Made by a program: the position numbers and the translations under genes
Assembly: GCF_000425405.1 (NCBI RefSeq)
Contig: NZ_KE384369.1
Span: forward strand, 16,009 to 80,008
Direction of reading: 5' to 3'
Source: Ferrimonas kyonanensis DSM 18153
Lineage (GTDB): Bacteria; Pseudomonadota; Gammaproteobacteria; Enterobacterales; Shewanellaceae
DNA: 64,000 nt
Shown here: one piece after another, positions 1,206-21,185 of the stretch
Layout of the letters: the number at the start of each line of letters is the position of its first letter
Numbering within the stretch: position 1 is the stretch's first letter
Notes under the pieces: generated by a model
What the model saw: only the letters and a program-made list of their open reading frames with translations
What the model was told of the DNA's origin: nothing
Database searches by the model: none

Positions 1206-1544
1206 CTAGCTGAGCTGGTCCAGGTAGCCCTGATATCGACTGCGGGTCTGGGCCAGACACTGCAATAGCGCCGGCATTCGTTCACTCACGTCGTTGTCGC
1301 CGCCCTTGGCCCGGGATTCCACCTCTTTGGCCAGTTCAGCCAACGCCTCGGCACCGAAGGTCATGGCCGACCCCTTAATGCTGTGGGCCAAGTCCTGATA
1401 CTGCTGCAACAGGCTCGCCTGCTGCACCTGCACCTCGCGGTGGGCCATCTCATCGATAAACACCGTAATCAACTCTTCCAGCAGATCGTAGCCGGCGTCA
1501 CTGGCCAGGTTGTCGATGCAACGCTCATTGAGTATTTCCGCCAT
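1206..1544 (-). CDS. Stand-alone Hpt (histidine phosphotransfer) protein
   Basis: A 112-residue protein with the Hpt signature AHSIKGSA, giving phosphoacceptor His54 in the expected helical context. It has no kinase or receiver domain. It lies at the edge of the syp-type locus and has its own sigma54 promoter (1580-1595), so it probably relays phosphate to the receiver domains of the SypG-like or SypE-like proteins. In Vibrio fischeri the equivalent function is the C-terminal Hpt domain of the hybrid kinase SypF, a gene that is absent here. The domain call is safe; the partner proteins are inferred from position. Confidence 0.85.
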   Translation of the reverse strand: MAEILNERCIDNLASDAGYDLLEELITVFIDEMAHREVQVQQASLLQQYQDLAHSIKGSAMTFGAEALAELAKEVESRAKGGDNDVSERMPALLQCLAQTRSRYQGYLDQLS

Positions 1545-1567
1545 AACCTCTCCTTGTTAAATGTCAC

Positions 1568-1583
1568 TGGCATTAACTTTGCA
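1568..1583 (+). promoter_or_regulatory. sigma54 promoter for the glycosyltransferase at 1661
   Basis: TGGCAT-N5-TTGCA has the -24 GG and -12 GC elements at exactly the sigma54 spacing (12 nt from the first G of GG to the G of GC). The start site should fall near 1594, about 65 bases before the ATG at 1661. It overlaps an opposing sigma54 promoter and shares its -12 core TTGCAA. Confidence 0.7.
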
Positions 1584-1595
1584 ACCTCTGTGCCA
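1580..1595 (-). promoter_or_regulatory. sigma54 promoter for the Hpt gene
   Basis: On the minus strand TGGCAC-N5-TTGCA is a full sigma54 consensus match. The predicted start is near 1569, giving a leader of about 25 nt before the Hpt ATG at 1544. The -12 element is the same TTGCAA used by the plus-strand promoter at 1568-1583, so the two face each other. Confidence 0.75.
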
Positions 1596-1660
1596 TGAGC
1601 CGCTTTCATCACGGCGGCAGATTGGCAATTCGACATAGCAGCAGCAACCGGGAGACCAAT

Positions 1661-2719
1661 ATGACCCCTGCCCCTAGCGTAAAACTGGTGATAGATGGCC
1701 GCCACTTCGGCGGCATCGAGGCTCACCTGTGCCAGCTCTTCACCAGGCTCAAGCAGCAAGGGGTGCCCTGCCAATTGGTGCTGCTGTCGGCGTATTCAGA
1801 GTCTAGTTTCAAAACGCAACTCAAGTTGCAAAAGATCCCTTTTACCGAGCTCTCTGGAAGTAGCCTGAGTAAGCTACGTCAATTGGCAGTCCTGTCTCAC
1901 CAAGGGGTGCTACACAGTCACGGTTACAAAGCCAACCTAATGACCCGGCTCGCCTGCCGACTCAGTGGCACTCAATCGGTGACGACCTTTCATGCCGGAG
2001 AGCCTGGGCAGGGGCGCCTGGCCTGGTACAATCGCCTCGATAAAGGCAGCGCCCGATTCAGTCTCAATGTGGCGGTCTCCCGCGCCATTGCCAATCAGGT
2101 ACCCGGACCCTGCCCGGTGATTCGAAATTTCGTGTCGCTGAGCCCCGCCGAACCCCGAAACGTGAGCCCCACCCTGAGGGTGGGCTTCATCGGCCGTTAC
2201 TGCCGGGACAAGGGCTTCGATCGCTTCTGTCGCCTCAGTCGACAACTGCCCCAGTATCAGTGGCACAGCTTTGGCCAGGGGCCCCTGTCCGTGAACATCG
2301 ATGCCAGTACCCTCAGCGACCACGGTCATGTCCACAATATCGGCCGGCACCTGGCCAATTTGGACCTGGTGATCATGCCGTCCCGGTTCGAAGGCCTGCC
2401 GCTGGCGGCGCTGGAAGCCATGGCGGCGCAACTGCCGATCATCGCCTACAACGTCGGCGACCTGGCACAACTGGTAGACCATCAGGTAGGCGCACTGATT
2501 GACGCCGGTGACCAGGCGGCAATGATCGACGCCATCCACCAATTTGCCCGTCTCAGCCCCCGGCAACGCAACCAACTGGGCCAGCAGGCTCGGGCTCGGG
2601 TGGAACGAGACTGGCATGGCAATGACACCCTGGCCCGCTACCTGTCCCTGTATCGTCAGGCGGCACAATCTATGCCTGCTGCCAGACCTGCATTTTTCGA
2701 TAGATGGTTGAAGGGCTGA
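1661..2719 (+). CDS. Glycosyltransferase family 4 (syp-type locus)
   Basis: A 352-residue GT-B glycosyltransferase. The N-terminal half contains a glycine-rich start (DGRHFGGIEAHL). The C-terminal donor domain has RVGFIGRYCRDKGFDRF and the family motif PSRFEGLPLAALEAMA ahead of an IAYNVGDLAQLV segment. Such enzymes add sugars from nucleotide donors to a lipid-linked repeat unit on the cytoplasmic face. The start follows CGGGAGA. The last 50 bases overlap the 3' end of the sypG-like gene on the other strand. The sigma54 promoter upstream ties it to the locus regulon; the sugar specificity cannot be read from sequence. Confidence 0.85.
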   Translation: MTPAPSVKLVIDGRHFGGIEAHLCQLFTRLKQQGVPCQLVLLSAYSESSFKTQLKLQKIPFTELSGSSLSKLRQLAVLSHQGVLHSHGYKANLMTRLACRLSGTQSVTTFHAGEPGQGRLAWYNRLDKGSARFSLNVAVSRAIANQVPGPCPVIRNFVSLSPAEPRNVSPTLRVGFIGRYCRDKGFDRFCRLSRQLPQYQWHSFGQGPLSVNIDASTLSDHGHVHNIGRHLANLDLVIMPSRFEGLPLAALEAMAAQLPIIAYNVGDLAQLVDHQVGALIDAGDQAAMIDAIHQFARLSPRQRNQLGQQARARVERDWHGNDTLARYLSLYRQAAQSMPAARPAFFDRWLKG

Positions 2720-4094
2720 CTTCCAACAAGCCGGCGGCCTGAGTGATGTTACCCTCGCAGCGGGCTATGGCCTCTTCGATGGCCTGACGCTCGATGTCCG
2801 CCAGCGACTGCGGCGCACCCACGTCGGCGGGAGACGCTGCAACCGTCACGCTGGCGTCCTCCCCAGGCTGGCTCCACTGAAACTGGGCGGGCGTGTCTTG
2901 GGGGGGCTCACACACCACCTGGTTCAGCGGTGCGGGCAAGTCTTCCTGGGCCACTTTACCGCCGGGGTGGATCACCGCCAGCTGGCGCATCACATTCTGC
3001 AATTGGCGCACATTGCCTGGCCAGCCAAATTTACTCAGGGTCCATTCCGCCTGGCGACTGAAGCCGACGAAGCGTTTGCCTTCCTCACCGCCATACTGTT
3101 GCAAGAAGCGTTTGGCCAGCAACAGCACATCGTCGCCCCGTCGCCGCAGCGGTGGCAAGGTGATGGGAACCACGTGCAGTCGATAATAGAGATCTTCCCG
3201 AAACCGACCCGCTTCCACCTCTTTCCAGGGATCGCGGTTGCTGGCACAGACGACCCGCACATCCACATCAATCAGCGTATCGCTGCCTACGGGCTGAATC
3301 TTGCCGGATTGCAGAAAGCGCAACAACTTGGCTTGCAGATCCAGCTCCATTTCACAGATCTCATCCAGAAACAGGGTGCCTTTGTCGGCGGCCTGAACGC
3401 AGCCCTGACGATCTTTCTGGGCCCCGGTAAACGCGCCTTTGACATGACCAAACAACTCACTTTCCACCAACTCCTTGGGAATGGCGGCGCAGTTCAGCGG
3501 CACGAAGGGTTGACTCTGACGACTGCCGGCCTGGTGCAAGGCTTCGGCACACAGCTCTTTGCCGGTACCGCTCTCACCCAGCACAAACACCGTGGCACGG
3601 CTGTCGGCACTGCGTTCGATCATCTGGTACACCGCCTGCATCGGCGTGCTGGCGCCAACAAAACCGTGGAAACCGGCCCGGCTCTGCTGAGTCTCGTACT
3701 TATCCACCAGCCGGTTCAACGCATAGAAACTGAGGGCATTGTTGACCGTAACCTGCAATCGCCGTGCTTCCACCGGCTTGCTGACGAAATCGTAAGCCCC
3801 CAGTCGCATCGCTTCGACGGCGGTCTCTACCGAACCATGGGCGGTAATCACAATAACCGGAACGGTGCAACCGCTGTTGTGAAGCATGCGCAGAATCTCG
3901 ATGCCGTCGTGATCTGGCAAATTCAGATCCAACAACACCAGCGACGGCAGTTGATTGGCCAGTTTGATCTTGGCATCGGCAAAGGTGGTCACGTGTTCCA
4001 CCACCACTCCGCTGTCTCTCAGATAGGCTTTATACACCTTAGCCAGAGATTCGGTGTCTTCAATCAATAACACTCGTTGAATGGGGTTGGTCAT
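2670..4094 (-). CDS. sypG: sigma54-dependent response regulator, SypG-like
   Basis: A 474-residue NtrC/LuxO-class regulator. The receiver domain (about 5-120) has acidic pair E12-D13, phosphoacceptor D56 in LLDLNLP, Thr in VITAHG and Lys in SKPVE. The AAA+ domain (about 145-380) has Walker A GESGTGKE, the sigma54-contacting loop GAFTGA, Walker B GTLFLDEI and an arginine-rich sensor region. A Fis-type helix-turn-helix (NITQAAGLLEVSPSTIYRK) ends the protein. It is the last gene of the sypABCDE-G-like operon and overlaps the gene upstream by 35 bp; its start follows AGAGGGAG. The sigma54 promoters throughout the locus are its obvious targets. In V. fischeri, SypG activates the syp promoters for biofilm formation. 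Confidence 0.88.
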   Translation of the reverse strand: MTNPIQRVLLIEDTESLAKVYKAYLRDSGVVVEHVTTFADAKIKLANQLPSLVLLDLNLPDHDGIEILRMLHNSGCTVPVIVITAHGSVETAVEAMRLGAYDFVSKPVEARRLQVTVNNALSFYALNRLVDKYETQQSRAGFHGFVGASTPMQAVYQMIERSADSRATVFVLGESGTGKELCAEALHQAGSRQSQPFVPLNCAAIPKELVESELFGHVKGAFTGAQKDRQGCVQAADKGTLFLDEICEMELDLQAKLLRFLQSGKIQPVGSDTLIDVDVRVVCASNRDPWKEVEAGRFREDLYYRLHVVPITLPPLRRRGDDVLLLAKRFLQQYGGEEGKRFVGFSRQAEWTLSKFGWPGNVRQLQNVMRQLAVIHPGGKVAQEDLPAPLNQVVCEPPQDTPAQFQWSQPGEDASVTVAASPADVGAPQSLADIERQAIEEAIARCEGNITQAAGLLEVSPSTIYRKMQVWQQA

Positions 4095-5574
4095 CGCGAA
4101 GCTCCCTCTTTGCCAATCCGACCAGCAGTAATGTGGCATCATCCATAAAGGCATCATTGCCCAGGTGCCATAACATTTCTATCATAGATTCAGGGTCTTC
4201 CTGAAATCCAATCTCAGGAAATGTCAAAAAACTCTCCTGCCAACCGTCAGTGTAGAAAAGCAAACGCGAATTGTCGTCCAGACTGTATGAAAATTCCTGA
4301 TATTGCTGATTTTTTGCTAGTCCGAGCAGTGGTCCCTCCACCCTCAGGTCCTGATTGACGCCCCGGCCGAGCAGCCGCGGTGGCGGATGTCCCGCCGCCG
4401 CCAGAATCAAACCGCCATCGGCATCGACCAGGCAGGCCAACGCCGTTGCCGCCGCGTCCGGCACATGATCACAGCACTCTAACGCGTCGGACAGTCTTGC
4501 CAGCAACGGGCCGGGGCGCCAGGGCTGCTGAGACAAAATGGAGTGAATCAGGCCGCTGGTAGTATGGGCAATAAGCTTGGCGCTGACGCCATGGCCCTGG
4601 CTATCGACCAACATCAGCATTCGAGTGCCGTCTTGCTGGTAATGATCGATCAACAGGTCGCCGCCCCCCAGGCTCTTAGGTTGATGCCTAAGGCTAAACG
4701 ACAGCCTGGCGGTATCTGGCGGGCAGCATGGGCTCAGGGGACGGGTCAGTTGTTGTTCGAGTTGCTGCTCATTGATTTGCAGAAGCTGCCGATGACGAAT
4801 TAACGCCCGCTCAATGCTCTGTGTCAGGCGCGCGGCGGACAGGGGCTTGGTCAGGACCTCATCGATACCACACGCCGCCAACTCGGCCATGCGTTCGCCC
4901 TCGGCGTCACTGCTCATGGCCAGAAATGGCAATGCCGCTCGCTCGGGCTTGGCACACAACCAATGCCGCAAGGTAAGACCATCGCCACCGGGCATGTGCA
5001 GATCGCTCAGCAGCAAGTCCACCGGTTCCTGCTCCAGCCAACTCTGGGCCTGGGCGACGCTGCTGCAGCAGATGACTCGATAGCGAGGCGACAGCCAGGC
5101 GTTGATCACCGCCAACTGACTGCGATCGTCATCGATGACCAGAATGGTGGCGTGCACCGGCCGACCGGAAAACGGCAGTTCAAACAGATTGGCCTGATGG
5201 TGCCAGCGGTAATGGGCTCGGGGAACACAGTGGCCGATCAATCCCAGGCCCATGGCCGACTCGGCGAACGTCAATGGCAGACGACGGGCGTCACTGAGGC
5301 GACGATTGAGGGACACGAACGGCGGGCCATTGTCCTCGATCTGCAGCAAGTATTGCGATCCCGGACGCCGGTACAGATTGATCTGTATGGCCTCGACCTG
5401 GTGACGGGAATGCTGGACCAGGTTATTGAGGTACTCGGACACCGCCGTCAGCACCGGCTCGGCCACCGAATCCACCACCCCGAGGCGACACAGCCCCTGG
5501 GTCAGCTCGATTCTAGCCTGGCGAACACCGGCACGGGTGCCATCGACCGGCAGGGTCAGCAGCAAGGCTTTCAT
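4060..5574 (-). CDS. sypE: SypE-like RsbW kinase / receiver / PP2C phosphatase
   Basis: The 504-residue protein has three parts. Residues about 20-120 form an RsbW-type serine kinase ATPase (N-box EYLNNLVQHS, then IEDNGPPF and AMGLGLIGHC). Residues about 128-250 form a receiver with an Asp triad, DLHMPGGDG and LTKP. The C-terminal half is a PP2C (SpoIIE/RsbU) phosphatase with GGGDLL and VDSQGHG. This architecture is characteristic of V. fischeri SypE, which phosphorylates and dephosphorylates the STAS protein SypA on serine. The start is the ATG of MKALLLT, which overlaps the sypD-like stop as ATGA and follows ACGGAG. It lies between sypD- and sypG-like genes. All catalytic motifs look intact in each domain. 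Confidence 0.88.
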   Translation of the reverse strand: MKALLLTLPVDGTRAGVRQARIELTQGLCRLGVVDSVAEPVLTAVSEYLNNLVQHSRHQVEAIQINLYRRPGSQYLLQIEDNGPPFVSLNRRLSDARRLPLTFAESAMGLGLIGHCVPRAHYRWHHQANLFELPFSGRPVHATILVIDDDRSQLAVINAWLSPRYRVICCSSVAQAQSWLEQEPVDLLLSDLHMPGGDGLTLRHWLCAKPERAALPFLAMSSDAEGERMAELAACGIDEVLTKPLSAARLTQSIERALIRHRQLLQINEQQLEQQLTRPLSPCCPPDTARLSFSLRHQPKSLGGGDLLIDHYQQDGTRMLMLVDSQGHGVSAKLIAHTTSGLIHSILSQQPWRPGPLLARLSDALECCDHVPDAAATALACLVDADGGLILAAAGHPPPRLLGRGVNQDLRVEGPLLGLAKNQQYQEFSYSLDDNSRLLFYTDGWQESFLTFPEIGFQEDPESMIEMLWHLGNDAFMDDATLLLVGLAKRELRDDQPHSTSVID

Positions 5575-6230
5575 CGCCATTCTCCGTTGCAGTAGGGGCT
5601 GTGCGACAACCACTGGACGATTCGGTCACACCATCCCGGCAACCGGTGCGCACGCGCCGAGATGGAGGCCGCCAACGACTTTCCCAGCCTGGGCATAGCG
5701 CCGTTGTCCATCACCACCGCCAGCACCGTCAAGCCATAATGGGATGCAGCCTGAGAAAACTCCTGCAACTCGGTCTCTGTGGTGTGGCCGGCCGAGACCA
5801 CCAGCACCACATGGCGACAGCCGACCTGAACACTGAGGGCGTCGGCTCCGGCATAGTGATCGCAGCTGAACACCACACAGCGGTAACTTTGCTGCCATCG
5901 AAGCAGCGCATCAACCACACTGCGCGCATGCAAACGCTGGCCTCCTTCCAGAGTCAGCGCCAGCTGGTCGAACACCTGCTCCTCCTCGATCAAGGTATGA
6001 CAAGAGATGTCGTCCAGGCTTAAACAGCGGCTGGCAACAGACGATTGTTGCGACCCCATGTCCACCAGCAGGCTGTGGTGCTGGCAGCGGCTTAACTGCC
6101 GACACAACTCCGCGGCCGCGGTCTGAGTCGAGTGCGCCTGGCCGGCACACACGATGGCCAGTTGGTTGATGCCCTGGCAACTGACCATGGTGGCCAGAGA
6201 CGAGAACGTCTGTTCTTGATTGTCGCTCAT
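5571..6230 (-). CDS. sypD: CpsD/BY-kinase-like protein with degenerate nucleotide site (SypD position)
   Basis: A 219-residue protein in the place held by the Wzc/CpsD-type tyrosine kinase SypD. The fold pattern is that of a ParA/BY-kinase P-loop domain: hydrophobic strand LAIVCAG, then HSLLVDMGSQ in the Walker A' position and YRCVVFSCDHY in the Walker B position. The P-loop itself reads GQAHSTQT instead of GxxGxGK[ST], the Asp residues of A' and B are not in their usual form, and there is no tyrosine-rich C-terminal tail. I infer a non-catalytic partner of the chain-length protein; assignment rests on position and remnant pattern. It overlaps both neighbours as ATGA. Confidence 0.6.
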   Translation of the reverse strand: MSDNQEQTFSSLATMVSCQGINQLAIVCAGQAHSTQTAAAELCRQLSRCQHHSLLVDMGSQQSSVASRCLSLDDISCHTLIEEEQVFDQLALTLEGGQRLHARSVVDALLRWQQSYRCVVFSCDHYAGADALSVQVGCRHVVLVVSAGHTTETELQEFSQAASHYGLTVLAVVMDNGAMPRLGKSLAASISARAHRLPGWCDRIVQWLSHSPYCNGEWR

Positions 6231-8323
6231 ATTGCCGCTCCCAATGCAAACAATGCCACTATGCTCAGGGCGTCACGGACGCCGTCGATAAAGATGCGCC
6301 AATTAGACTGATCCTCATTGGGCACATAGACGGTGTCACCCGGCCTCACCAAAGGAATTCGAGCGTAATCCGGATCGGTTACGAAGGCCTGCAAATCAAA
6401 CACTCGAGCCTGGGGATCGCAACAGCTGTGTTGAACCACGATGATCTTTTCGATGTAGGCGTTGTCCGACGGCCCCCCGGCCTCCGCCAGCAAATCCAGT
6501 AGATTCATGGAGTTGTCAAAACTGTACCGGCCCGGCTTTCGTACCGCCCCCATCAGACGCACCACCTGCTCCGACGGCTTTTCCAGCCACTTTCGTTCCC
6601 GTTGGGGCAGGAAAATGGTGTCACCTGGGACCACCTGCGGCAGCACACTCTCATCACCGGTCTCAAAATAGCGGGCCAGATTCAGCTGGGTCACCCGGCT
6701 GGTGGCCCCATTGCGGTGGGTAATGCGAATCTGGCCAAGATCCGCCTCATCGGTGGGGCCATCGGCCGCCGCCAGGATATCAAGGAAGCCGAGCTGGTCG
6801 TTAAACGCGTACCGTCCCGGCGACTCCACCTGGCCGAACACGTAGATGGAGCTTTCCGGGCTCTGCCGTACCCAGGTCGACTTATTGTCGGTGGGATCCC
6901 AGGGCAGCTCATTGACCACCACGGTATCGCCGGCCACCAGGGTGGGCAGGCTCGCATAATCCCCCCCTTGTTTAATGAACTTATCTAAATCAAACAGCCG
7001 TTTATTGCCATTTTCTTTAACGATCTCAATCTCCGCCAGGTTGGCATGCTGCAAGGGGCCACCGGCGTGGGCAAACAGGTCGAGAAACGACATGCCATCG
7101 TCCCATTCATAGCGTCCGGGTCGATTCATGGCACCGATGATCTTGATCGCCTTATCCGAGGGGATCTTCAGCCAGGACTTCTCGTTAACGTCGGTTTTTT
7201 CCGGCACAAAAATCACGTCACCGGGCTCGATGGCCGGCAACCGGCCGTTTGCCTGGTTCTCGGTGTAGGACAACAGGTTCACCTCCACCACCGATTGGTC
7301 CTGGCGCAACAAGCGAATGTTGCGAGTCTCAGCGAACCGGGTCGGGCCGCCGGCATTGGCCAACAGATCCAGGAAGGTCACGTTATCGCCGGTTTCATAG
7401 GCCCCCGGGGCCTGAACCTCCCCCATAACGTACACGGTACGCTGGGTGTTGGAGACCACATCCACCTGAATCGGGACGTAAATAAGGGTTCCAGCGCCGA
7501 TGGGTGGCAACATCTCCGCCGTGCCCTCATCGAGGTAGGTTTTGAGATCAAACAGGTAAGGCGTGTTGCCGCTGATCACCCGAATGTGGCTGACGTCGGC
7601 ATAGCGGGTAACCCCCTCGGCCCGCATCAGGGCATCGACGATGCTCATGGTGCCCTTTAACGCGAAACTGCCGGGATTACGCACCTCACCAAACAGGGTG
7701 ATGGAGTCGGCATCGCCACCGCCATCGCCACCGGCGATCAACGAGCGGGCATCGAAATTCACCTCGACGTTGCCGGTCAGCGGCGACGCCGGCACAAACA
7801 ACTCGTCTTCGGTCTGTAACTTGGGCAACAGGGTCTCGTCGCCACTGTCCAGGTAGGCCTTGTAGTCGAAACTCAGCCGCTGCTCTCCCCGACGCACCTG
7901 CAACTTATCCAGCTGGGCACCGGGACGTAATCCCCCGGCAGCCTGTATTGCCATCTGCACATTGCCATCGGCCGGCAACAGCACTTCCCCAGGGGCCTGG
8001 ACGTAGCCCAGTACTCGAATCAGCAATTGCCGCTGACTGAGCTCGACGTCAAATTGGTCCAGGTTAAGGTACACCGTCGACAGAGCCAGTTGGATGGCGC
8101 TACGCGCCTGAGCCAGAGTCTTGCCTCTGAGGTTGACCTTGCCCACCTCCGGCAAGCGGATTTTTCCCAGTTTATCCAGGGTAAACGGCTGCTCAAAGTC
8201 AACCTCGCCTGGCATGATGATCACCACCGCATCGCCGGGTTGCAACTCTCTGGCGCTGTCATCGGCAACGCTTAACGACGGCAGAGTCAGCAGGATTAGG
8301 ACCATCAGCAGGCGCATCATCAT
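6227..8323 (-). CDS. sypC: Outer-membrane polysaccharide export protein with six SLBB repeats (SypC-like)
   Basis: A 698-residue Wza-family exporter. After a signal peptide (ends near SLSVADD) comes a poly-export domain (LQPGDAVVIIMPGEVDFEQPF). Six SLBB-like units follow, each with a G-x-V/M-x-x-PG-x-(Y/F/V) start and an A-x-A-GG-P-type end (for example VYVMGEVQAPGAYE, IKIIGAMNRPGRYE, IYVFGQVESPGRYA, VRLMGAVRKPGRYS). The C-terminus is hydrophobic. Ordinary Wza proteins are about 350-380 residues with two or three SLBB units, so this is an expanded form. The start is the first of three ATG codons after GGAGGGAG; TAATG overlap upstream and ATGA overlap downstream show translational coupling. 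Confidence 0.88.
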   Translation of the reverse strand: MMMRLLMVLILLTLPSLSVADDSARELQPGDAVVIIMPGEVDFEQPFTLDKLGKIRLPEVGKVNLRGKTLAQARSAIQLALSTVYLNLDQFDVELSQRQLLIRVLGYVQAPGEVLLPADGNVQMAIQAAGGLRPGAQLDKLQVRRGEQRLSFDYKAYLDSGDETLLPKLQTEDELFVPASPLTGNVEVNFDARSLIAGGDGGGDADSITLFGEVRNPGSFALKGTMSIVDALMRAEGVTRYADVSHIRVISGNTPYLFDLKTYLDEGTAEMLPPIGAGTLIYVPIQVDVVSNTQRTVYVMGEVQAPGAYETGDNVTFLDLLANAGGPTRFAETRNIRLLRQDQSVVEVNLLSYTENQANGRLPAIEPGDVIFVPEKTDVNEKSWLKIPSDKAIKIIGAMNRPGRYEWDDGMSFLDLFAHAGGPLQHANLAEIEIVKENGNKRLFDLDKFIKQGGDYASLPTLVAGDTVVVNELPWDPTDNKSTWVRQSPESSIYVFGQVESPGRYAFNDQLGFLDILAAADGPTDEADLGQIRITHRNGATSRVTQLNLARYFETGDESVLPQVVPGDTIFLPQRERKWLEKPSEQVVRLMGAVRKPGRYSFDNSMNLLDLLAEAGGPSDNAYIEKIIVVQHSCCDPQARVFDLQAFVTDPDYARIPLVRPGDTVYVPNEDQSNWRIFIDGVRDALSIVALFALGAAI

Positions 8324-9168: not shown

Positions 9169-9479
9169 GACTGCTCCCCGGTAAACGCGATCGCCTTATC
9201 CACCTTCAGCATGGTCAATATCCGCTTTGGCTGACCATGAACGTCGGCCAGTTGCAGCACTCGCTGTTGCCGCTTCAGGCGCTTAAAAAGAAAGATGATG
9301 GCACCGATCCCGGAGGAATCGATGAACTCCGTGGCTTTCAGGTCGATAACCACCAACTGATTGGGCTCTTGCAACAACTCCTCGAACTGCTCCTTGATGC
9401 CAGCCACACTGTCGATATCAAACTGTGCCGGCGCCAATACCGTTTTCGGGTTCAGACTGTCATTAAGATGAATCGCCAT
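9165..9479 (-). CDS. sypA: STAS-domain anti-sigma-factor antagonist-like protein (SypA-like)
   Basis: A 104-residue single STAS domain. The conserved phosphorylation loop reads FIDSSGIGAI, placing the target serine at residue 56, the same position reported for V. fischeri SypA. In that system SypE phosphorylates and dephosphorylates this serine, and the unphosphorylated form promotes biofilm. It is the first gene of the six-gene sypA-B-C-D-E-G-like operon. The start follows CGGGAG, and a consensus sigma54 promoter lies about 60 bases upstream (9539-9554). Domain identity is certain; the role follows from the operon. Confidence 0.92.
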   Translation of the reverse strand: MAIHLNDSLNPKTVLAPAQFDIDSVAGIKEQFEELLQEPNQLVVIDLKATEFIDSSGIGAIIFLFKRLKRQQRVLQLADVHGQPKRILTMLKVDKAIAFTGEQS

Positions 9480-9538: not shown

Positions 9539-9554
9539 TGCAACAGCAGTGCCA
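9539..9554 (-). promoter_or_regulatory. sigma54 promoter of the sypA-G operon
   Basis: On the minus strand TGGCAC-N5-TTGCA, preceded by T, matches the sigma54 consensus at every conserved position with exact -24/-12 spacing. Start site expected near 9527, giving a leader of about 48 nt. An upstream element begins 60-61 bp further up. Confidence 0.82.
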
Positions 9555-9643: not shown

Positions 9644-9653
9644 GCCGACAGGC

Positions 9654-13941: not shown

Positions 13942-14311
13942 AGGCCATCCTCAGCACCACTTCACCGTCGCGGCTGTCGGGCAGATAGCGGCCCTGAACC
14001 TGGCCCTGATAACCCAGGGTCCGCAGCGATTCGATCACCAGCGCCAGTCGGTTCTGAGCCTGGTAGGCCGCCGCCCAGTCCGGGCCATCGTCGACCGACC
14101 CAACGTCTACCTTAATCGTGGGGGAGCGAAACAACGACGGCGTCATCTGCTGCTGCAACAGGGCCACCAGACCCGATTCGCCGCGCCACAGCACACGAAT
14201 CACCTGGGGGTCCTGTTGTTGGGCCGTCGATAACATCTTCGATTTGGAGTTGGGGGTCGAACTGCAGCCCGCCAGTGCCAGCAGCAAAGTCATTGCCAAA
14301 AACAGTCTCAC
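13931..14311 (-). CDS. Small lipoprotein of the polysaccharide locus, function unknown
   Basis: A 126-residue lipoprotein with lipobox LALAGC at the end of the signal peptide. The mature part has no motif I recognise: a short linker, then an alpha/beta segment (IRVLWRGESGLVALLQQQM ... LALVIESLRTLGYQGQVQGRY). The start is GTG, chosen because AAAGGAGGT lies at ideal distance. It is the first gene after a good sigma54 promoter and is coupled to the chain-length gene, so it should act with the export or polymerisation complex. I know of no exact counterpart in the V. fischeri syp set. Confidence 0.75.
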   Translation of the reverse strand: MRLFLAMTLLLALAGCSSTPNSKSKMLSTAQQQDPQVIRVLWRGESGLVALLQQQMTPSLFRSPTIKVDVGSVDDGPDWAAAYQAQNRLALVIESLRTLGYQGQVQGRYLPDSRDGEVVLRMAYGG

Positions 14312-14371: not shown

Positions 14372-14387
14372 TGCAGGAGTCACGCCA
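14372..14387 (-). promoter_or_regulatory. sigma54 promoter of the lipoprotein-SypO-SypP-SypQR genes
   Basis: On the minus strand TGGCGT-N5-CTGCA has GG and GC at the exact sigma54 spacing. The predicted start near 14360 gives a leader of about 50 nt to the GTG at 14311. Confidence 0.7.
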
Positions 14388-14415
14388 CAATTAAATTTCC
14401 ACTAAAAACAAAGAA

Positions 14416-15531
14416 TTAAGCAGTGAACCTGGTCGAAGCTTGCAGTCTGCAACGGCCGGATTGCAATTTGCCGCGAATCTGGTCGGCGCGATCGCCCCAC
14501 CCTTGCCCCAGCACCTGCATGCGAATCTCAGCCACACTCGGCCGGGAGATCAGGCTCATCAGTACCATGGCGACAAACTCCTCCCGTGTCGTTGCCAACT
14601 GCACCCCACAGGCATAGTCGCGAGCGGCATCGAAATCGGTGCCCACCACGGGCACACCGGCAGCCAGGTATTCCCGCAACTTAAGGGGGTCACAGGCGGC
14701 GATCTGAGGGGTTTGCAGGAAAGGCAGCAAGGCCACATCGAAGTGCTGAGCATAGGCCGCCAGTTGATCGTGGGGCAGACGTCCCAGGTGATGGACATTG
14801 GGTTTGGCCAGCAGCGCTCCGGGGCAACTGTGGTTATCGCCAATCAATACCAGCTGACACTCAGGCAATACCGTGGTCAGCGTATCCAGCAACCCGTAGT
14901 CCAACCAGGGCGCCAGCGAGCCGTAGTAGCCCAGCACCGGTCCTTTCGGTAGCGCTTTGGGCCGAGGTCGGGAGTGGCTAAACAAACGCATGTCGACGCC
15001 ATGACGCACGACGGATACCGCCGGATGGTCAAAGCGCCGAGCCAAGACCTCACTGGCGCAAAACACCCACTCGGCCCGTTGCAGCAACCGCTGCTCAGCC
15101 TGCAGCACCGGCTCATGATCCACACCACAGAGGCCGCCAAAGTCGTCACCGCAGTAGTAGATCACCCGAGCGCCAGGAAACAGATCCAGGTAGGCCTCGG
15201 CGCTGGGCAACGCACACCAGACAAAGTCCACCGGCCCAACGTCGGCCAATGCGCGCTGCATCTGGCGATGATTGAGGCGCTGCAACCAGGAAGACTGGGC
15301 CAAAGGCCAGACCCTGGGGGCAATCACCTCAAAAGGAGCCTGGCACCGCTTCGGTGCCCGTGCCACCCCTTTGCTGACCAAGCGGGCGGCATCCTGCCAT
15401 CGGGGCTGACGCAGACCGATGGAGTTGATCCACACCACCTCAAAGTGCGCCGACAATTCCCGTATCAGATGTTGACTGCTTGAGGGGTGCCGACCCCAGT
15501 CCTCACCGAAGACCACCATTTTAGGTTTCAT
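14416..15531 (-). CDS. Glycosyltransferase, family 4-like (SypN position)
   Basis: A 371-residue GT-B-like protein. The N-terminus MVVFGEDWGRHPSSSQHLIRELSAHFEVVWINS is typical of transferases acting on exopolysaccharide. The donor half has VLGYYGSLAPWLDYGLLDTL, LVLIGDNH, VHHLGRLPHDQLAAYAQHFDVALLPF and LKLREYLAAGVPVVGTDF. The start after GGAGGTGGGTG overlaps the acetyltransferase gene by 11 bp. It is the last gene of the flippase-polymerase operon. The sugar it transfers cannot be told from sequence. Confidence 0.84.
   Translation of the reverse strand: MKPKMVVFGEDWGRHPSSSQHLIRELSAHFEVVWINSIGLRQPRWQDAARLVSKGVARAPKRCQAPFEVIAPRVWPLAQSSWLQRLNHRQMQRALADVGPVDFVWCALPSAEAYLDLFPGARVIYYCGDDFGGLCGVDHEPVLQAEQRLLQRAEWVFCASEVLARRFDHPAVSVVRHGVDMRLFSHSRPRPKALPKGPVLGYYGSLAPWLDYGLLDTLTTVLPECQLVLIGDNHSCPGALLAKPNVHHLGRLPHDQLAAYAQHFDVALLPFLQTPQIAACDPLKLREYLAAGVPVVGTDFDAARDYACGVQLATTREEFVAMVLMSLISRPSVAEIRMQVLGQGWGDRADQIRGKLQSGRCRLQASTRFTA
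14447..14465. promoter_or_regulatory. Candidate upstream activator element for the promoter at 14372-14387
   Basis: CTGCAACGGC-N4-TTGCA lies 61 bp (counted from TGCAACGGC) upstream of the -24 element, exactly as at 9614-9632 upstream of the sypA promoter. Here it falls inside the 3' end of the glycosyltransferase coding sequence and is preceded by a small palindrome, TTGCAG-T-CTGCAA. Confidence 0.5.
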
Positions 15532-16192
15532 CACCCACCTCCAGGTTTCGTACGATTCGGGCCGGATTGCCCGCCACCACAACATTTGCCGGTACGTCGC
15601 GGCTGACCACTGAACCGGCGGCAACAATGCTGCCCCGTCCGACAGTGACCCCCGCCAGGATGATGGCACCGGTACCCACCCACACATCCTGCTCCAAGAT
15701 GATTGCTCTGGCCTGGTGCGGCAACTCCGGCAACCCCTGTGCCCGAGCCCGGGCTTCCAGTGGGTGACCGGGGTAGCCGGCGAGAAACACCCTTCCGGCC
15801 AACCTGACGTTATCGGCCAGGATCACGCGCGTGCCACAGGCGATGGTGTTCTGCCAGCCAATATCGATGTTGTCGCCCAGTTCCAGGCTGCTGCCGGGGC
15901 GACCGCAGATGGTGCTGACTCCGCTGATTCGACACCCCTGGCCCAGCGTCACCTCAACCGGGCCCAGCACCTGAGGCATGCCGTCGTACAGATACAACCC
16001 CTGCCCACCCGACACCCGACTGCGAAACATCGGCGTCCAGATCAGCACTCGAAGCAGACCGGACCACAGCGTGCGCCCTCCCTGCAACACCCAGAATAAC
16101 GGCCGGTACACCAGCGTTATCGGCGGAATCTGCCACTGGCGAATCACCAGATAGGCGGGCTTAAGCCATTGTTTGATTGCAAAAGCGGTCAT
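15521..16192 (-). CDS. Hexapeptide-repeat acyltransferase (SypM-like)
   Basis: A 223-residue left-handed beta-helix acyltransferase. Hexapeptide turns are visible from about residue 75 on (GCRISGVSTICG, DNIDIGWQNTIACGTRVILADNVRLAG). The classical C-terminal block DVWVGTGAIILAGVTVGRGSIVAAGSVVSRDVPANVVVAGNPARIV is present. It should O- or N-acetylate a sugar of the repeat unit using acetyl-CoA. The start overlaps the polymerase stop as ATGA. Position between polymerase and glycosyltransferase equals that of sypM in V. fischeri. Confidence 0.87.
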   Translation of the reverse strand: MTAFAIKQWLKPAYLVIRQWQIPPITLVYRPLFWVLQGGRTLWSGLLRVLIWTPMFRSRVSGGQGLYLYDGMPQVLGPVEVTLGQGCRISGVSTICGRPGSSLELGDNIDIGWQNTIACGTRVILADNVRLAGRVFLAGYPGHPLEARARAQGLPELPHQARAIILEQDVWVGTGAIILAGVTVGRGSIVAAGSVVSRDVPANVVVAGNPARIVRNLEVGDET

Positions 16193-17517
16193 GGTATTTG
16201 CCTCACAGGTTCAGATTCAATTCGACAGCTCGCCCACAGCAAGGCGGCCAGGATGTACAGAGGCCAGGTAAAAGCCTGAGTTAAGAAGGTGGCGCTGATC
16301 CCAAATCCCACCAGCCCTGAGTACAACGCCAGTGCCCAACAACTGGCCTCCCAGTGTTCCCGGACCCGTTGCAACAACTGGCGAGAGCGGCGCAACAACG
16401 CCACATAGAAGGCGACAAACAGAACCAGCCCCACGATCCCTACCTCGGCCAGTACCTGAAACCAGGTACTGTGGACGGCATGACTTTTGCCATCCCAGTG
16501 GGGGGAATAGAAAAAATAGTTGGCAAGAAAGTTATCCAGACCGACCCCGAAAACCGGATGGGTCCAGGCCATGGACGCGGCCGCTTGCCAGGCGTAGAGG
16601 CGGCCCATGGCGGATTCATCGATGCCGGATTCGGCGGCACCGCCGGACTGACGTTGATCGATACCGGCCAGCATCAACAACACCATGATCAGCACCGGTG
16701 CCAACAGCCACACCCAGCGCGGTAACCGGTATCGCCGCAACACCAGGCTGCCAGTAACGCCACAGATCCCCAGCAGGCCGCCACGGCTCTGAGTCGCGAT
16801 GATCGCCATCACCAGCACCAGCATGATCCCCCCGGCGACCAGGGCGCCTTTGCCGCCGTACAGGGCTCGACTGAAGGCGAAGCTCAATGGCAACAGCAGC
16901 ACCAGCGCCAGATCATTGGGGTCCCCGAGGGTGGAGCCCCAACTGCGGCCAATGGTGACCCGGGTGCCCTCCACCACCTCCAGGCCATGGGCACTGTTGT
17001 AGAGGGCACAGACGGCAACGACACTGCCCGCCACAATGATCAGCCAGGCCACGCACCGCAATTGGGCACGGCTCTGAATCAACCAGGAGACGGTAAAGCA
17101 CATCAGCACTACCTTGACCCAGTTGCCACTCCAGTAGGCGGCCGCCAATGGCCGGTTGGTCGCCAGCACCACCCCGATGGTGCTCAACGCAAACAGCAGC
17201 AATAACACTCGGCCTTCGGGGTACAGATAGATGCGAGTCTGACGCACCACCCCCACCTGCCAAAACAGCACCGCCAACGACCCCAGCGCCAGCATTTGCG
17301 GAATCCTTAACCCCAATAGCGCCGGATTCAGTTCATGCAGACGAAACGCGGAAAACAACACAAACAACACGCACAGCATTACTGGCCAGCGCTGCGCCAG
17401 TATCAGCGCCGGCAGCAACAGCCAGCCGGCCAGCAACAGCAGCGGACTCAGCCAAGCCCCCACCGCAATCAAGCTGGCGCTCAACAGGGCGATCCCCAAT
17501 GGATAGGCGCCTATCAT
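16189..17517 (-). CDS. O-antigen ligase/polymerase family protein (Wzy-like, SypL-like)
   Basis: A 442-residue polytopic membrane protein with about 11 hydrophobic segments and the large periplasmic loop of the Wzy_C/O-antigen ligase family (GRLYAWQAAASMAWTHPVFGVGLDNFLANYFF, then HSTWFQVLAEVGIVGL). It probably polymerises lipid-linked repeat units in the periplasm. The start is ATG at MIGAYPLG, overlapping the flippase stop as ATGA; the ribosome site is weak, which fits translational coupling. Confidence 0.86.
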   Translation of the reverse strand: MIGAYPLGIALLSASLIAVGAWLSPLLLLAGWLLLPALILAQRWPVMLCVLFVLFSAFRLHELNPALLGLRIPQMLALGSLAVLFWQVGVVRQTRIYLYPEGRVLLLLFALSTIGVVLATNRPLAAAYWSGNWVKVVLMCFTVSWLIQSRAQLRCVAWLIIVAGSVVAVCALYNSAHGLEVVEGTRVTIGRSWGSTLGDPNDLALVLLLPLSFAFSRALYGGKGALVAGGIMLVLVMAIIATQSRGGLLGICGVTGSLVLRRYRLPRWVWLLAPVLIMVLLMLAGIDQRQSGGAAESGIDESAMGRLYAWQAAASMAWTHPVFGVGLDNFLANYFFYSPHWDGKSHAVHSTWFQVLAEVGIVGLVLFVAFYVALLRRSRQLLQRVREHWEASCWALALYSGLVGFGISATFLTQAFTWPLYILAALLWASCRIESEPVRQIP

Positions 17518-18869
17518 GATTGCCACTGCGCCGCCGCTACCGTTACGGTACCGGTTTTCAGCGTCCTGATGGCATACGCAGCCGCAACACTGGCCAGCGC
17601 CAGCAACAAAACCGGATGCCCGGCCCACAATGCCATCGCCGTTGCGATGCTCAGGCCCAGTAATCCCACAGTCGAATACGGCAAACGCAGCTGACGTTGG
17701 CTAACCCAATAGAACAGCATGGCCCGAATGGCCATCAGCAGGGTCATGGCCTGAATCAGGCCGGTTAACCCCGCGACAATGATCGCCAACGGCAGCAGCA
17801 CCAGCGCCGGTAACATGATTGCTGCATTTAACATCAGTGCCAGATTGCCGGTGGCTCGGTGATAGACGCCGATGCTGAGCAAAGCCGGAATCTGCCTGAG
17901 CAGAGTGATCAGCAGCAGCGCCGGCAGCCACTGCAGGCCCTGCTGATAGGCAGCATCAAACAGCCAGGGAAACGCCAGCGGGATCGCCGTGGCGGCCAAG
18001 GCGATGGCGACCACCAACAGCGCTACCCCGGCGGCAGTCACCCGCGCCAGGATGACGGACTCGTTGCGATCCGCCAATCGATGCCGCAACGGTCCCCACC
18101 ACAGCATAAACGGCTCCATGGCATAGGCGGGTAGCAGGCTCAGTTGCCACACCAGAACGTAGGCCCCCAACACCTCCAGGCTAACGGCCTCTGCCAGCCA
18201 GGGCCGTTCGTAACCGTTGAGCACAAAGGTAATGCCGGTGGACAGGGCCAGTGGCAGTCCATAGCCCACGATGGGGCGCCAGGGACCGACCGGGCTGCGG
18301 GCGGCACGCATCAACATCGGCCGGGCATCCCAGATCAGGATGGTGGCGGTGGCCACCGCCCCGCTGAGCATCACTGCGCCCACCCCCATGCCTGCCAGCA
18401 GCAACAGCAGCGACAGGCCGGTCTGAAGGGCCGACATCGACACGATGACCCAGAAAAAGCGCTGCGGCCGGTTATTGATTCTCAGCGCCACCAGTCGCAG
18501 CCCCAACCAGCCCCCCATGGCCAGATTCGCCAGCAACAGCTGCAACCACAGCCAATGCAAATCACCGGGCAACAGCCGGGCCAGTCCCAACGCCAGTAGT
18601 GGCGACAGCAGCAACAGTGCACAGCCATAGCGCCAGCCAAATGCCTGAATGCGGCGCAGCATGGCGGCATCCGAGGCATAGCGCTGACAACATTCGGTCA
18701 ACCCCAGCGACGCCACCAGGCTACCGACATTCGCCACCGCCACCAGCAGACCCAGCTGACCAAAGGCCGCCACCCCGAGCAGGGAGGCGGTCACCGGCAG
18801 CATCAGCAGACCCAGCGCCTTCTGGGTCACGCCACCAACGGCGTAGTACACCACCGCTGACCGGCTCAT
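17514..18869 (-). CDS. Polysaccharide flippase (Wzx/MVF-type, SypK-like)
   Basis: A 451-residue protein with 12 or so transmembrane segments and the N-terminal pattern of Wzx flippases (VVYYAVGGVTQKALGLLMLPV, FGQLGLLVAVANVGSLVASLGL). It should move undecaprenyl-linked repeat units across the inner membrane. The start is the ATG of MSRSAVV, overlapping the previous stop as ATGA, with GGAG upstream. Between a glycosyltransferase and the polymerase it occupies the sypK place. Confidence 0.85.
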   Translation of the reverse strand: MSRSAVVYYAVGGVTQKALGLLMLPVTASLLGVAAFGQLGLLVAVANVGSLVASLGLTECCQRYASDAAMLRRIQAFGWRYGCALLLLSPLLALGLARLLPGDLHWLWLQLLLANLAMGGWLGLRLVALRINNRPQRFFWVIVSMSALQTGLSLLLLLAGMGVGAVMLSGAVATATILIWDARPMLMRAARSPVGPWRPIVGYGLPLALSTGITFVLNGYERPWLAEAVSLEVLGAYVLVWQLSLLPAYAMEPFMLWWGPLRHRLADRNESVILARVTAAGVALLVVAIALAATAIPLAFPWLFDAAYQQGLQWLPALLLITLLRQIPALLSIGVYHRATGNLALMLNAAIMLPALVLLPLAIIVAGLTGLIQAMTLLMAIRAMLFYWVSQRQLRLPYSTVGLLGLSIATAMALWAGHPVLLLALASVAAAYAIRTLKTGTVTVAAAQWQS

Positions 18870-20011
18870 ATCAGCGACTCCATCCAACCAGACAGACGTT
18901 TGGCCTGCAATTCGACATCAAACAGTCGGCGTGCCCGCCACTTGGCCTGCAACGCCATGCGTTGGTAGCGAGCGTCAGACAACGCGGTCAGTTTACGGAT
19001 GGCACGACTGAGGGCGCCGGGGTTGTCTGGCGCCACCTGAAAACCGGTGCGGCAACTGACGATCTCTTTTAGCCCCATGATGTTGCTGGTGATCACCGGC
19101 AATCCCATGGCCATGGCTTCTTTGACCACCAGCGGACCGGTGTCGCGATCGCCATTGCCGGCGATACGAAACGGCGCCACCAGCCCCAGATAGCGGTGGC
19201 CATGCTGGGCCAGCCAATCCTGGTTGCGAACCCCCAGGAACCGTACCGACTTAAGCCCCAGCGCCTCAATCTGGGCCCGATAGGACGCCGCTAACGGGCC
19301 GTCACCGACGATGTCCAGCTGCAACTGCGGGTCATCGATGCGTGCCAACGCCTGCAGCAAGGTATCCAACCCCTTCTTCTCAACCAGGCGACCGATGAAC
19401 AACAGCCGTTTGCGCCTGCTCGGGACATCGCCGGGCGTAAACAGTTGCGTATTGATGCCGCAGGGGATCAGCGCCGCCTGGCTGGCGCCCTGGTCCTCAA
19501 ACAGCTGCCGCATCTCCCGGCACACCGCTACCGACAGGTCCGCATTGCGCAGCTTGACCGGCAAATCATGGGGGTGGGCGTAGACATCGGCACCATGGCC
19601 AACAAAGGACACCGTGATGCCAAGAATGCGGGCGGCGACGATGGCGACTGCCGCCGTGTGTTGAGCAAAATGCGCATGCAGGTGATCACAGCCGCGGGCC
19701 TGGGCGGCAACCCGGGCCGCCATCAACAGCAGGCTGCGGCGGGGAAAGGCCTGTTGTTCCCGCAAAAATTGCCACACCGCCGGGGTCAGGACAGCCTGAG
19801 CCATCGCCAGCGCCACCTTGCTGCCCAGCGGTGCCGGTGGCACCACCCGGGTCATCCACGCCTGGTGCAACGCACTGTCGATGGCATCGGCAGACTCCAG
19901 CGCGATGGGCAGGATTCGATGACCCAGCTTGGTCATGGCGTTCATTTCGTTGACCACGAAGGTCTCTGTCAGTACAGGAAAGCTGGGAATGACGTAGGCA
20001 ATGGCTTTCAT
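18866..20011 (-). CDS. Glycosyltransferase family 4 (SypJ-like position), first gene of the flippase operon
   Basis: A 381-residue GT-B enzyme: N-terminus MKAIAYVIPSFPVLTETFVVNEM, a HLHAHFAQHTAAVA segment with conserved His residues, SFVGHGADVY, then donor-domain motifs LLFIGRLVEKKGLDTLLQAL, LDIVGDGPL, VRFLGVRNQDWLAQ and DTGPLVVKEAMAMGLPVITSNIMG. This is the WcaL/colanic-acid type of family 4 enzyme. The start follows CGGAG. A weak sigma54-like promoter lies at 20049-20064, so the five-gene operon (transferase, flippase, polymerase, acetyltransferase, transferase) may be co-regulated. Confidence 0.86.
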   Translation of the reverse strand: MKAIAYVIPSFPVLTETFVVNEMNAMTKLGHRILPIALESADAIDSALHQAWMTRVVPPAPLGSKVALAMAQAVLTPAVWQFLREQQAFPRRSLLLMAARVAAQARGCDHLHAHFAQHTAAVAIVAARILGITVSFVGHGADVYAHPHDLPVKLRNADLSVAVCREMRQLFEDQGASQAALIPCGINTQLFTPGDVPSRRKRLLFIGRLVEKKGLDTLLQALARIDDPQLQLDIVGDGPLAASYRAQIEALGLKSVRFLGVRNQDWLAQHGHRYLGLVAPFRIAGNGDRDTGPLVVKEAMAMGLPVITSNIMGLKEIVSCRTGFQVAPDNPGALSRAIRKLTALSDARYQRMALQAKWRARRLFDVELQAKRLSGWMESLI

Positions 20012-20048
20012 GAACGGCTCCGAATCAGGCAAGGTCTGACTCCCTTGA

Positions 20049-20064
20049 TACAAAAACCACGCCA
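20049..20064 (-). promoter_or_regulatory. Possible sigma54 promoter of the flippase operon
   Basis: TGGCGT-N5-TTGTA on the minus strand has correct spacing and a good -24 element, but TTGT instead of TTGC at -12. A TTGCAACGGC element begins 61 bp upstream, as in the better promoters, which raises its credibility. Confidence 0.4.
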
Positions 20065-20112
20065 ACAGGCTTACCTATTGAATAAAAAGAACTATTTCCT
20101 CGGTGGCGCGGT

Positions 20113-20135
20113 GGCCGTTGCAGTTTGCAACGGCC
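20113..20135. promoter_or_regulatory. Perfect 10-3-10 palindrome in the divergent intergenic region
   Basis: Arms GGCCGTTGCA and TGCAACGGCC flank GTT. It sits between the divergent transferase genes at 20011 (-) and 20265 (+) and contains the TGCAACGGC core found upstream of the other sigma54 promoters. A regulator site is more likely than a terminator, since it lies upstream of both genes. Confidence 0.55.
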
Positions 20136-20212
20136 GCCAGAGCACTCAACGGCCAAATCATTGCAAATCGAGCAGCCCTTAAACAATTACCAATAAATCA
20201 ATAAGATAACTT

Positions 20213-20228
20213 TGGCATCCTTCCTGCA
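20213..20228 (+). promoter_or_regulatory. sigma54 promoter of the family 2 glycosyltransferase
   Basis: TTGGCAT-N5-CTGCA shows GG and GC at exact sigma54 spacing, with the start expected near 20240, 25 bases before the ATG. A partial element (CAACGGC followed by TTGCA, 20147-20165) lies about 60 bp upstream. Confidence 0.7.
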
Positions 20229-20264
20229 GTTCCGATAACACTGTCGGTGAGTTCAGGAGTCACT

Positions 20265-21185
20265 ATGGAACCAAGCATCTGCGTCATCATTCCCAGCTAC
20301 AACTGCCTCGAGTACCTGCCCCAGGCGCTTGACAGCATCTGGGCCCAAAGCTTGAGAGTAAAGGAGGTGTGGGTGGTGGATGACGGCTCCAGCGACGGCA
20401 CCGCCGAGTGGCTGCAGCAACAGCGCCCTCGCCACCCCGCCCTGCATTCGCTGCGGTTGGAAAATGTTGGTCCATCCGCCGCCAGGAATGCCGCCCTGCA
20501 GCTGTGTCAGAGTGACTGGGTGGCCTTTCTGGACGCCGACGACCTTTGGTACCCCGATAAGTTGGCTCGGCAGTGGGCCGCCTTGTCGGCCAACCCGGAT
20601 GCGACATTTTGCATCAGCAACTATCTGCACATCGATGAGCAGCGCCGGCCCATCATCGACTGCTTTAGTTACTGGCCCGAGTATGGCCGCCAGTCCTGGC
20701 ATAGCCTCAGCGGCGATCAACTGTTTGCGGAAAATGTGGTGGGAACCTCAACGGTGTTGGCTCGCACTCAGGCCCTGCGCCAGTGCGGTGGTTTCGATGA
20801 AACGTTGCGATCCGCTTCAGACTGGGACCTGTGGTTGAAGCTGATCCGCACCGGAGAGTGCGTGGTGGAGCCCGAGTGTCAGATGGACTATCTGATGCGC
20901 GCCGGCTCCATAACCCGTGCCAGGCTCAAACGCCTGCAGGCCGTCGAGCGCATCATCGACCGACATCAGGCCCACCACAGCGACGACGCCGTCGACAGCG
21001 CCCGAGCCGGGTTGGCCCGCAACTACGCCGAGTATTATCAGGAACAGGGAATGTTCGCCAAGGCGTGCGCCTATCAGTGGCAGGCACTGCGACTGAAGTT
21101 TCACTATCAGGGAGTGCGCCACCTGCTGGCAGCGCTAAAAGGCGGGATACTGGCGGTCGCCAAACCCGCCCGCTGGGCCCAATAG
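20265..21185 (+). CDS. Glycosyltransferase family 2
   Basis: A 306-residue GT-A enzyme: CVIIPSYNCLEYLPQALDSI, VWVVDDGSSDGTAEWL, NVGPSAARNAAL, WVAFLDADDLWYPDKL (the DxD-type metal site) and GGFDETLRSASDWDLWLKL. The N-terminal 230 residues are catalytic and the tail is helical. The start is the ATG after AGGAG. It has its own sigma54 promoter and marks the right border of the polysaccharide locus. Confidence 0.87.
   Translation: MEPSICVIIPSYNCLEYLPQALDSIWAQSLRVKEVWVVDDGSSDGTAEWLQQQRPRHPALHSLRLENVGPSAARNAALQLCQSDWVAFLDADDLWYPDKLARQWAALSANPDATFCISNYLHIDEQRRPIIDCFSYWPEYGRQSWHSLSGDQLFAENVVGTSTVLARTQALRQCGGFDETLRSASDWDLWLKLIRTGECVVEPECQMDYLMRAGSITRARLKRLQAVERIIDRHQAHHSDDAVDSARAGLARNYAEYYQEQGMFAKACAYQWQALRLKFHYQGVRHLLAALKGGILAVAKPARWAQ

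Follow-up and report, generated by a model that had tools for sequence, protein, structure and literature searches.

How does a syp-type polysaccharide locus receive its signal when it carries no gene for the hybrid kinase SypF? The question is raised by positions 1206-21185 of a 64,000-nucleotide stretch of Ferrimonas kyonanensis DSM 18153 (contig NZ_KE384369.1; the whole stretch is called the window below), in which a first-pass annotation had seen a rearranged syp-type biofilm locus outside Vibrio. The locus is of the syp (scv) type, with a predicted polysaccharide product. From the arrangement of its genes and by analogy to Vibrio fischeri, we consider it probable that a LuxU-type relay replaces SypF here and drives the SypG-like regulator and probably also SypE. 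Syp loci outside Vibrio, loci without sypF and sypQ-sypR fusions are already published (Liu et al. 2022, PMC8941931); the novelty of this locus is the LuxU-type relay that accompanies it.

A LuxU-type phosphotransfer gene at the border of the locus

The regulatory part of the locus and its left border contain the following genes:

299-1204, plus strand: CofD/YvcK-family gene (PF01933, 8.7e-68), left border of the locus; also adjoins luxO-luxU in Vibrio-type genomes
1206-1544, minus strand: LuxU-type stand-alone histidine phosphotransferase, HPt (PF01627, 1.7e-12; PDB LuxU 1y6d, E = 2.7e-8; motif HSIKGSA; tree)
1595-2719, plus strand: GT4 glycosyltransferase (GT), sypH-like, reversed relative to Vibrio-type loci (Pfam; matches in Vibrio-type syp loci)
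2670-4157, minus strand: sigma54 response regulator of the SypG/LuxO family (Pfam REC, sigma54 activator and Fis; NCBIfam, PDB, trees)
4060-5613, minus strand: SypE-like RsbW-REC-PP2C switch (Pfam RsbW-type ATPase, REC and SpoIIE phosphatase; catalytic motifs present)
5571-6230, minus strand: SypD-like, divergent CapB/BY-kinase relative (profile match to CapB, 2e-11)
6227-8350, minus strand: SypC-like SLBB exporter (Pfam SLBB and Poly_export)
8323-9168, minus strand: SypB-like OmpA lipoprotein (Pfam OmpA; lipobox LLAGC read from the sequence)
9165-9479, minus strand: SypA-like STAS protein (Pfam STAS; Ser56 is residue 56 of the protein)

The first-pass annotation had listed the STAS, OmpA lipoprotein, SLBB exporter, CpsD-like, RsbW-REC-PP2C and sigma54-regulator genes as one overlapping operon in sypABCDE-G order, and all of them are there in that order. 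Pfam identified each one except the CpsD-like protein (5571-6230), which had no Pfam match but led to CapB tyrosine kinases at 2e-11 with a seven-row profile. All neighbours in A-B-C-D-E-G overlap by open reading frame (ORF) coordinates, and by 1 to 35 bases with likely start codons. These lengths rest on guessed starts. The sypE guess is wrong by one codon, without effect on the range; for sypE and the polymerase gene the calculation can be used only to tell that neighbours overlap, not by how much. The exporter stands in line with SypA-type STAS and SypB-type OmpA genes, and a sigma54 regulator of the SypG/LuxO family is encoded within the locus. No SypF hybrid kinase with an HPt domain was found within the locus, by the ORF list and a Pfam search of its proteins, so the annotation was right on this point. 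We did not take this absence as disqualifying, because sypF is also absent in 38 scv-positive Vibrio species (PMC8941931). The earlier gene inventory was incomplete: it had overlooked the HPt gene, which belongs to the signalling part, as well as a small lipoprotein-like gene at 13931-14311.

We compared 14 genomes of the genus, which are related, so that the counts are not independent. Genomes (G) and families (f) of the comparison set are given by codes where needed, G000 being the genome of the window and f21 the Vibrio-type genomes. The synteny that the annotation had proposed to check was found: 8 of the 14 genomes carry a syp-type locus next to the same CofD gene. SypC was matched in nine, and in eight of these the gene layout as far as CofD is that of the window (regulator, reversed sypH, HPt where present, CofD); HPt is present in seven of the eight. 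The same layout also occurs outside the family, in G325 (f6), as E-G-H(reversed)-HPt-CofD. In the ninth SypC-bearing genome, G006, the HPt lies inside a 1007-codon frame just before its SypG, which is an SypF-type input. This locus of G006 (contig C7, L190-L191) is a different, SypF-type syp locus, and its regulator groups with family f9 at 100/99, a sign of transfer.

The HPt protein (about 114 amino acids) has LuxU as its best PDB match at E 2.7e-8, the next best being 0.0011. In a tree of 36 rows and 121 columns, the HPts of the genus group with the proteins from LuxU positions and one f6 HPt at 88/73 only, and stand-alone HPts are separated from the HPt domains of hybrid kinases at only 74/68. 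An HPt match was obtained in 113 of 394 genomes of the order. In f21 genomes, regulator, HPt and CofD occur together in 25 of the 30 loci returned by the search; four of the remaining five were fetched further and all lie within syp loci. The set SypE-HPt-CofD was seen in all 11 f2 genomes having an HPt match (a count among matched f2 genomes only, with the HPt place in G046 taken from the 394-genome search), and three of them showed no SypG-like match in the 31-39 kb fetched. In G219 (f9), G117 (f11) and G031 (f1) the neighbour of a stand-alone HPt is a SypG/LuxO-type gene, and the 16-17 kb fetched contained no further syp genes. In two f25 loci (L192, L193) a LuxU-type HPt beside CofD has two other regulators of the sigma54 type as neighbours, and the 17 kb fetched showed no syp genes.

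The distribution bears on a simpler explanation, namely that this is an ordinary scv/syp locus in which the HPt is merely an old neighbour of CofD, unrelated to syp, and SypG is phosphorylated by another kinase or HPt. We regard this as unlikely, though it deserves serious consideration, and several observations speak for it and weigh against a syp-linked relay. G009 keeps the locus without the HPt gene, and HPt and CofD are adjacent without syp genes in stretches fetched from three f25 genomes and from G271 (f6), so part of the linkage between HPt and locus may be positional. The genome of the window contains six HPt domains in all, and other phosphate donors are therefore possible. On the other hand, the HPt stays beside SypE in the 11 matched f2 genomes, it adjoins or lies one gene from a SypG/LuxO-type gene in f1, f6, f9, f11 and f21 genomes, and it has its own perfect sigma54 site in G000 and G005.

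The regulator and the partner switch

The nature of the regulator (2670-4157) was more difficult to determine. Its best PDB match is LuxO, and the LuxO model NF041946 is also its best NCBIfam match, but the score of 607.7 bits is under the cut-off of 800. As controls for this model we used f21 genome G166, where the gene at the luxO place scored 859 and the regulator of the syp locus 610.8. Because 607.7 is close to the SypG value and not to the LuxO value, the window combines the luxO-luxU place and HPt type with a regulator that scores like SypG.

Two trees were computed. In the first (59 rows, with distant outgroups), four regulators of the genus joined neither the LuxO group (29 rows, 100/99) nor the SypG rows, and the approximately unbiased (AU) test did not reject their grouping with LuxO (p 0.233) or with the SypG clade (p 0.062). 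For the second, 13 of the 59 rows were removed (4 outgroups, 2 long LuxO and 7 thinned LuxO sequences) and five were added, giving eight genus proteins and no outgroup. Here the genus regulators joined the syp-linked regulators of f21, f9, f12 and G006 at 95/92, with the LuxO grouping still not rejected (p 0.17). The alignment of the LuxO linker region was very gappy. The regulator belongs to the SypG/LuxO family and appears to group, not decisively, with SypG. Published work gives an identity of about 48% between SypG and LuxO, and SypG can activate qrr1 (PMC10162802).

The database matches, the AU tests and the LuxO-like palindromes described below would also suit a true LuxO-LuxU quorum-sensing pair that merely adjoins the polysaccharide locus and acts through Qrr RNAs. 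We find this improbable. No Qrr RNA (RF00378) exceeded the cut-off in the window's genome (best 25.7 bits, E 0.036) or in three genus mates, and no LuxQ sensor domain was found in the window's genome, whereas three of three and two of two f21 genomes, respectively, were positive. With the score on the LuxO model, these results led us to reject the pair; the denser tree and the overlap of the regulator gene with sypE speak in the same direction. The system resembles the luxO-luxU relay of Vibrionaceae in its LuxU-type HPt adjoining the CofD gene, its regulator of the same family and its palindrome type. It differs in lacking a Qrr above cut-off and a detected LuxQ domain, and in that the regulator gene lies in the polysaccharide operon.

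Regarding the partner switch, SypE has the RsbW, REC and PP2C domains with their catalytic motifs and SypA has the serine target, from which switching is predicted. A SypE match spanning all three domains was recovered in only 2 of the 14 genus genomes, and in 6 of the 8 syntenic loci SypE is missing between sypD and sypG, so that sypD runs directly into sypG. For this reason we do not count the switch as a conserved core of the locus. SypA keeps the DSSG serine in G002 and G008, the two of the six SypE-less loci that were aligned; V. vulnificus and V. parahaemolyticus likewise have no sypE, yet the SypA serine is kept (PMC4517449). The SypA-type proteins of three aligned f2 loci (L048, L050 and L100) have DSTG: a threonine occupies the phosphorylation site, even though these loci encode SypE.

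Biosynthetic genes, related loci and promoter-like sites

The rest of the locus is made up of biosynthetic genes:

9654-11420, minus strand: SypQ-SypR fusion, GT2 and initiating sugar transferase (Pfam GT2 and Bac_transf in one ORF)
11411-12658, minus strand: SypP-like GT4, likely start near 12502 (Pfam)
12499-13941, minus strand: SypO-like chain-length protein (TIGR03007, under cut-off)
13931-14311, minus strand: gene for a small lipoprotein-like product that matches no Pfam family; 7 of the 8 syntenic genus loci have it
14416-15687, minus strand: SypN-like GT, likely start 15531 (Pfam)
15521-16192, minus strand: SypM-like hexapeptide acyltransferase (Pfam)
16189-17628, minus strand: SypL-like polymerase/ligase (Pfam Wzy_C)
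17514-18887, minus strand: SypK-like flippase (Pfam Polysacc_synt, under cut-off; tblastn with syp loci)
18866-20065, minus strand: GT4 heading the biosynthetic unit (Pfam)
20247-21185, plus strand: divergent GT2 (Pfam); in an f9 genome and in G006, a relative is likewise found next to a sypL-like gene

The minus-strand order from 20065 to 2670 is therefore GT4, flippase, polymerase, acyltransferase, GT, small lipoprotein-like, chain-length, GT4, GT2-initiating transferase fusion, STAS, OmpA lipoprotein, SLBB exporter, CapB-like, RsbW-REC-PP2C and sigma54 response regulator. Past the end of the regulator, the sypH-like and CofD genes lie on the plus strand and the HPt gene on the minus strand. 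The gaps between genes suggest three transcription units: GT4-K-L-M-N, in which every neighbouring pair overlaps; lipoprotein-O-P-QR, preceded by about 120 bases; and A-B-C-D-E-G, preceded by 174 bases. The K to R set, including the initiating transferase, is present in the order that the annotation had given, but Q and R are fused and not separate. The outer transferase gene at 1595-2719 is corrected to a reversed sypH-like gene, and the divergent GT2 is also part of the locus.

The best NCBIfam matches of the chain-length, export and ligase proteins, TIGR03007, TIGR03027 and TIGR03097, would point to an exopolysaccharide system of the XrtA/PEP-CTERM type. All three are under their curated cut-offs, on which ground we rejected such a system, and the genes A-B-C-D-E-G find their counterparts in line in syp loci; we hold this explanation to be very improbable.

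The syp kinship claimed by the annotation was borne out in f21 genomes, where proteins of the window match syp genes in line: 13 of 15 regions are syp loci and two are luxO-type places. In the 13 loci the sypH-like match (30-34% identity) lies directly after sypG in eight, about 1.5 kb further in three and was unseen in two. The gene order here is a cyclic shift of the f21 syp order, so the locus is indeed rearranged, but neither its presence outside Vibrio nor its order sets it apart: homologues of scv/syp are reported from 148 species in 28 genera (PMC8941931), and related orders occur in f6 and f12 genomes. With the scv loci of V. parahaemolyticus and others it shares gene content and non-Vibrio hosts; many of these loci also have no sypF, Q-R fusions occur in several genera, and V. 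parahaemolyticus has no SypE (PMC8941931). In contrast to what is found here, a term search of the main text of PMC8941931 found no mention of HPt or Ferrimonas, and a full-text literature search for Ferrimonas and syp returned nothing relevant.

Compared with the syp locus of Vibrio (Aliivibrio) fischeri, the window has SypA, B, C, D, E, G, H and K-R type genes, the SypA serine, a sigma54-type regulator with promoter sites and several transcription units. The differences are the shifted order, the Q-R fusion, the reversed sypH, the absence of sypF, and the presence of a LuxU-type HPt and of LuxO-like palindromes instead of the published SypG motif. The megaplasmid NZ_CP062197 of Plesiomonas shigelloides has M, N, a small lipoprotein-like ORF, O, P, Q, R, A, C and E in the window's order. 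It differs in that a large hypothetical gene follows N, that K and L are on the opposite strand, that the places of B and D are taken by hypotheticals which do not match these two proteins of the window, and that no SypG-like or HPt match was obtained within the 37 kb fetched. By eye, small lipoprotein-like ORFs directly before sypO were seen both in Plesiomonas (L045) and in f6 genome G262 (L102). Far from the locus, at window positions 60000-64000, the G+C fraction drops (from about 0.52 to 0.40) and none of the three ORFs examined matches a Pfam family, possibly a foreign insert.

We also searched for regulatory sites. For sigma54 promoters we used the consensus TGGCAC-N5-TTGCW, and the following sites were noted within the locus:

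1568-1583, plus strand: sigma54 promoter-like site, 1 mismatch, before the sypH-like gene (motif scan)
1580-1595, minus strand: perfect sigma54 promoter-like site, TGGCAC-N5-TTGCA, before the HPt gene (motif scan); among six genus mates with HPt, in G005 only
9539-9554, minus strand: perfect sigma54 promoter-like site before sypA (motif scan); in 4 of 7 genus mates at 1 mismatch or fewer
14440-14452, no strand: palindrome TTGCA-N3-TGCAA upstream of lipoprotein-O-P-QR, within the 3' end of the sypN-like ORF
20118-20130, no strand: palindrome TTGCA-N3-TGCAA in the divergent promoter region, differing at 1 position from the published LuxO motif
20213-20228, plus strand: sigma54-like site, 2 mismatches, before the divergent GT2 (by eye); G005 and G008 have 1 mismatch there

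Perfect sigma54 sites occur twice in the window against 0.18 expected, and both lie within the locus, before sypA and before HPt. The exact palindrome also occurs twice against 0.15 expected, again only inside the locus, 110 bases upstream of the head GT4 and 141 upstream of the lipoprotein gene. It is conserved before the head GT4 in the seven testable genus loci (exact in five, with 1 mismatch in two, 94-110 bases upstream; G002 was left out, as its stretch ended there and the distances were artefactual), and before the lipoprotein gene it is exact in all seven loci having the gene (99-202 bases upstream). The background is 1.55% of random 300-base windows with an exact palindrome. These promoter and palindrome sites support a predicted direct regulation of the syp units by the SypG-like protein.

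Other counts do not favour this regulation. Sigma54 sites at 1 mismatch are not above chance in the window (7 vs 4.7 expected), and at 1 mismatch or fewer they stand upstream of HPt in two of seven HPt-bearing genus loci and upstream of sypA in five of eight. We took the LuxO and SypG motifs from PMC10162802, where they are published as TTGCAWWWTGCAA and TTCTCANNNTGMDWN, respectively. The site at 20118 departs from the LuxO motif at 1 position and that at 14440 at 2; the latter palindrome lies inside the sypN-like ORF. Window sites at 2 mismatches or fewer to the LuxO motif are not in excess (5 vs 5.7 expected), and neither, with mismatches permitted, are those of the SypG motif (5 vs 8).

A proposed LuxU-type input for the syp switch

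The proposed relay would start from a hybrid kinase encoded elsewhere in the genome. On contig C8 of G000 (157714-159968; L181 3215-5469), an H-NOX gene overlaps a gene for a hybrid histidine kinase in which a receiver is present and an HPt absent, which makes this kinase a HahK-like candidate for the input. In V. fischeri, HahK, under the control of HnoX, acts both via SypF and via LuxU on SypG-dependent biofilm, and the authors favour LuxU being also able to phosphorylate SypE (PMC12369376). Another hybrid kinase, this one with an HPt, is encoded 8 kb to the left of the window (L054); it was considered as a substitute for SypF and set aside, as its neighbours, judged only by eye, resemble a TorT/TorR set.

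The kinase, possibly the H-NOX-linked one, would pass phosphate to the HPt at 1206-1544, which in turn would phosphorylate the receiver of the SypG-like regulator. We infer that this regulator binds the TTGCA-N3-TGCAA palindromes and turns on the sigma54 promoters before sypA, the biosynthetic units and the sypH-like gene; it would also turn on the HPt gene itself, giving positive feedback. The same HPt would probably phosphorylate the SypE receiver, converting SypE from SypA kinase to SypA phosphatase, and a single relay could thereby control both transcription and the post-transcriptional brake. This mechanism is supported by the arrangement of the genes and by analogy to the HahK-LuxU-SypG side branch of V. 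fischeri. The annotation had expected the same SypE/SypA and SypG logic as in that species. SypG control is backed by the promoter and palindrome sites, but a LuxU-type HPt would take the place of the missing SypF, and SypE is not general in the genus.

The layout also raises a tentative, rather doubtful evolutionary scenario, in which the LuxO-LuxU relay of Vibrionaceae would descend from the control module of a syp-type locus beside CofD/YvcK. Like the present locus, the ancestral one would have encoded a single SypG/LuxO regulator and a single LuxU-type HPt; in Vibrionaceae the regulator would have been duplicated, the copy left beside CofD becoming LuxO, and syp would have moved away and gained SypF. 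A literature search for an account of the common origin of quorum-sensing and syp control gave nothing to the point.

If the proposed relay is right, F. kyonanensis would provide a natural case in which the switch for syp biofilm takes its local input from a LuxU-type relay; in V. fischeri, genetic work has uncovered this link as a side branch. The locus would allow tests of whether a LuxU-type protein can transfer phosphate to SypE in addition to SypG. For natural contrasts, the genus itself includes loci that have SypE and loci that lack it, one locus lacking HPt, and one member whose kinase is of the SypF type. A common origin of the control of quorum sensing and of symbiosis polysaccharide would become testable as well.

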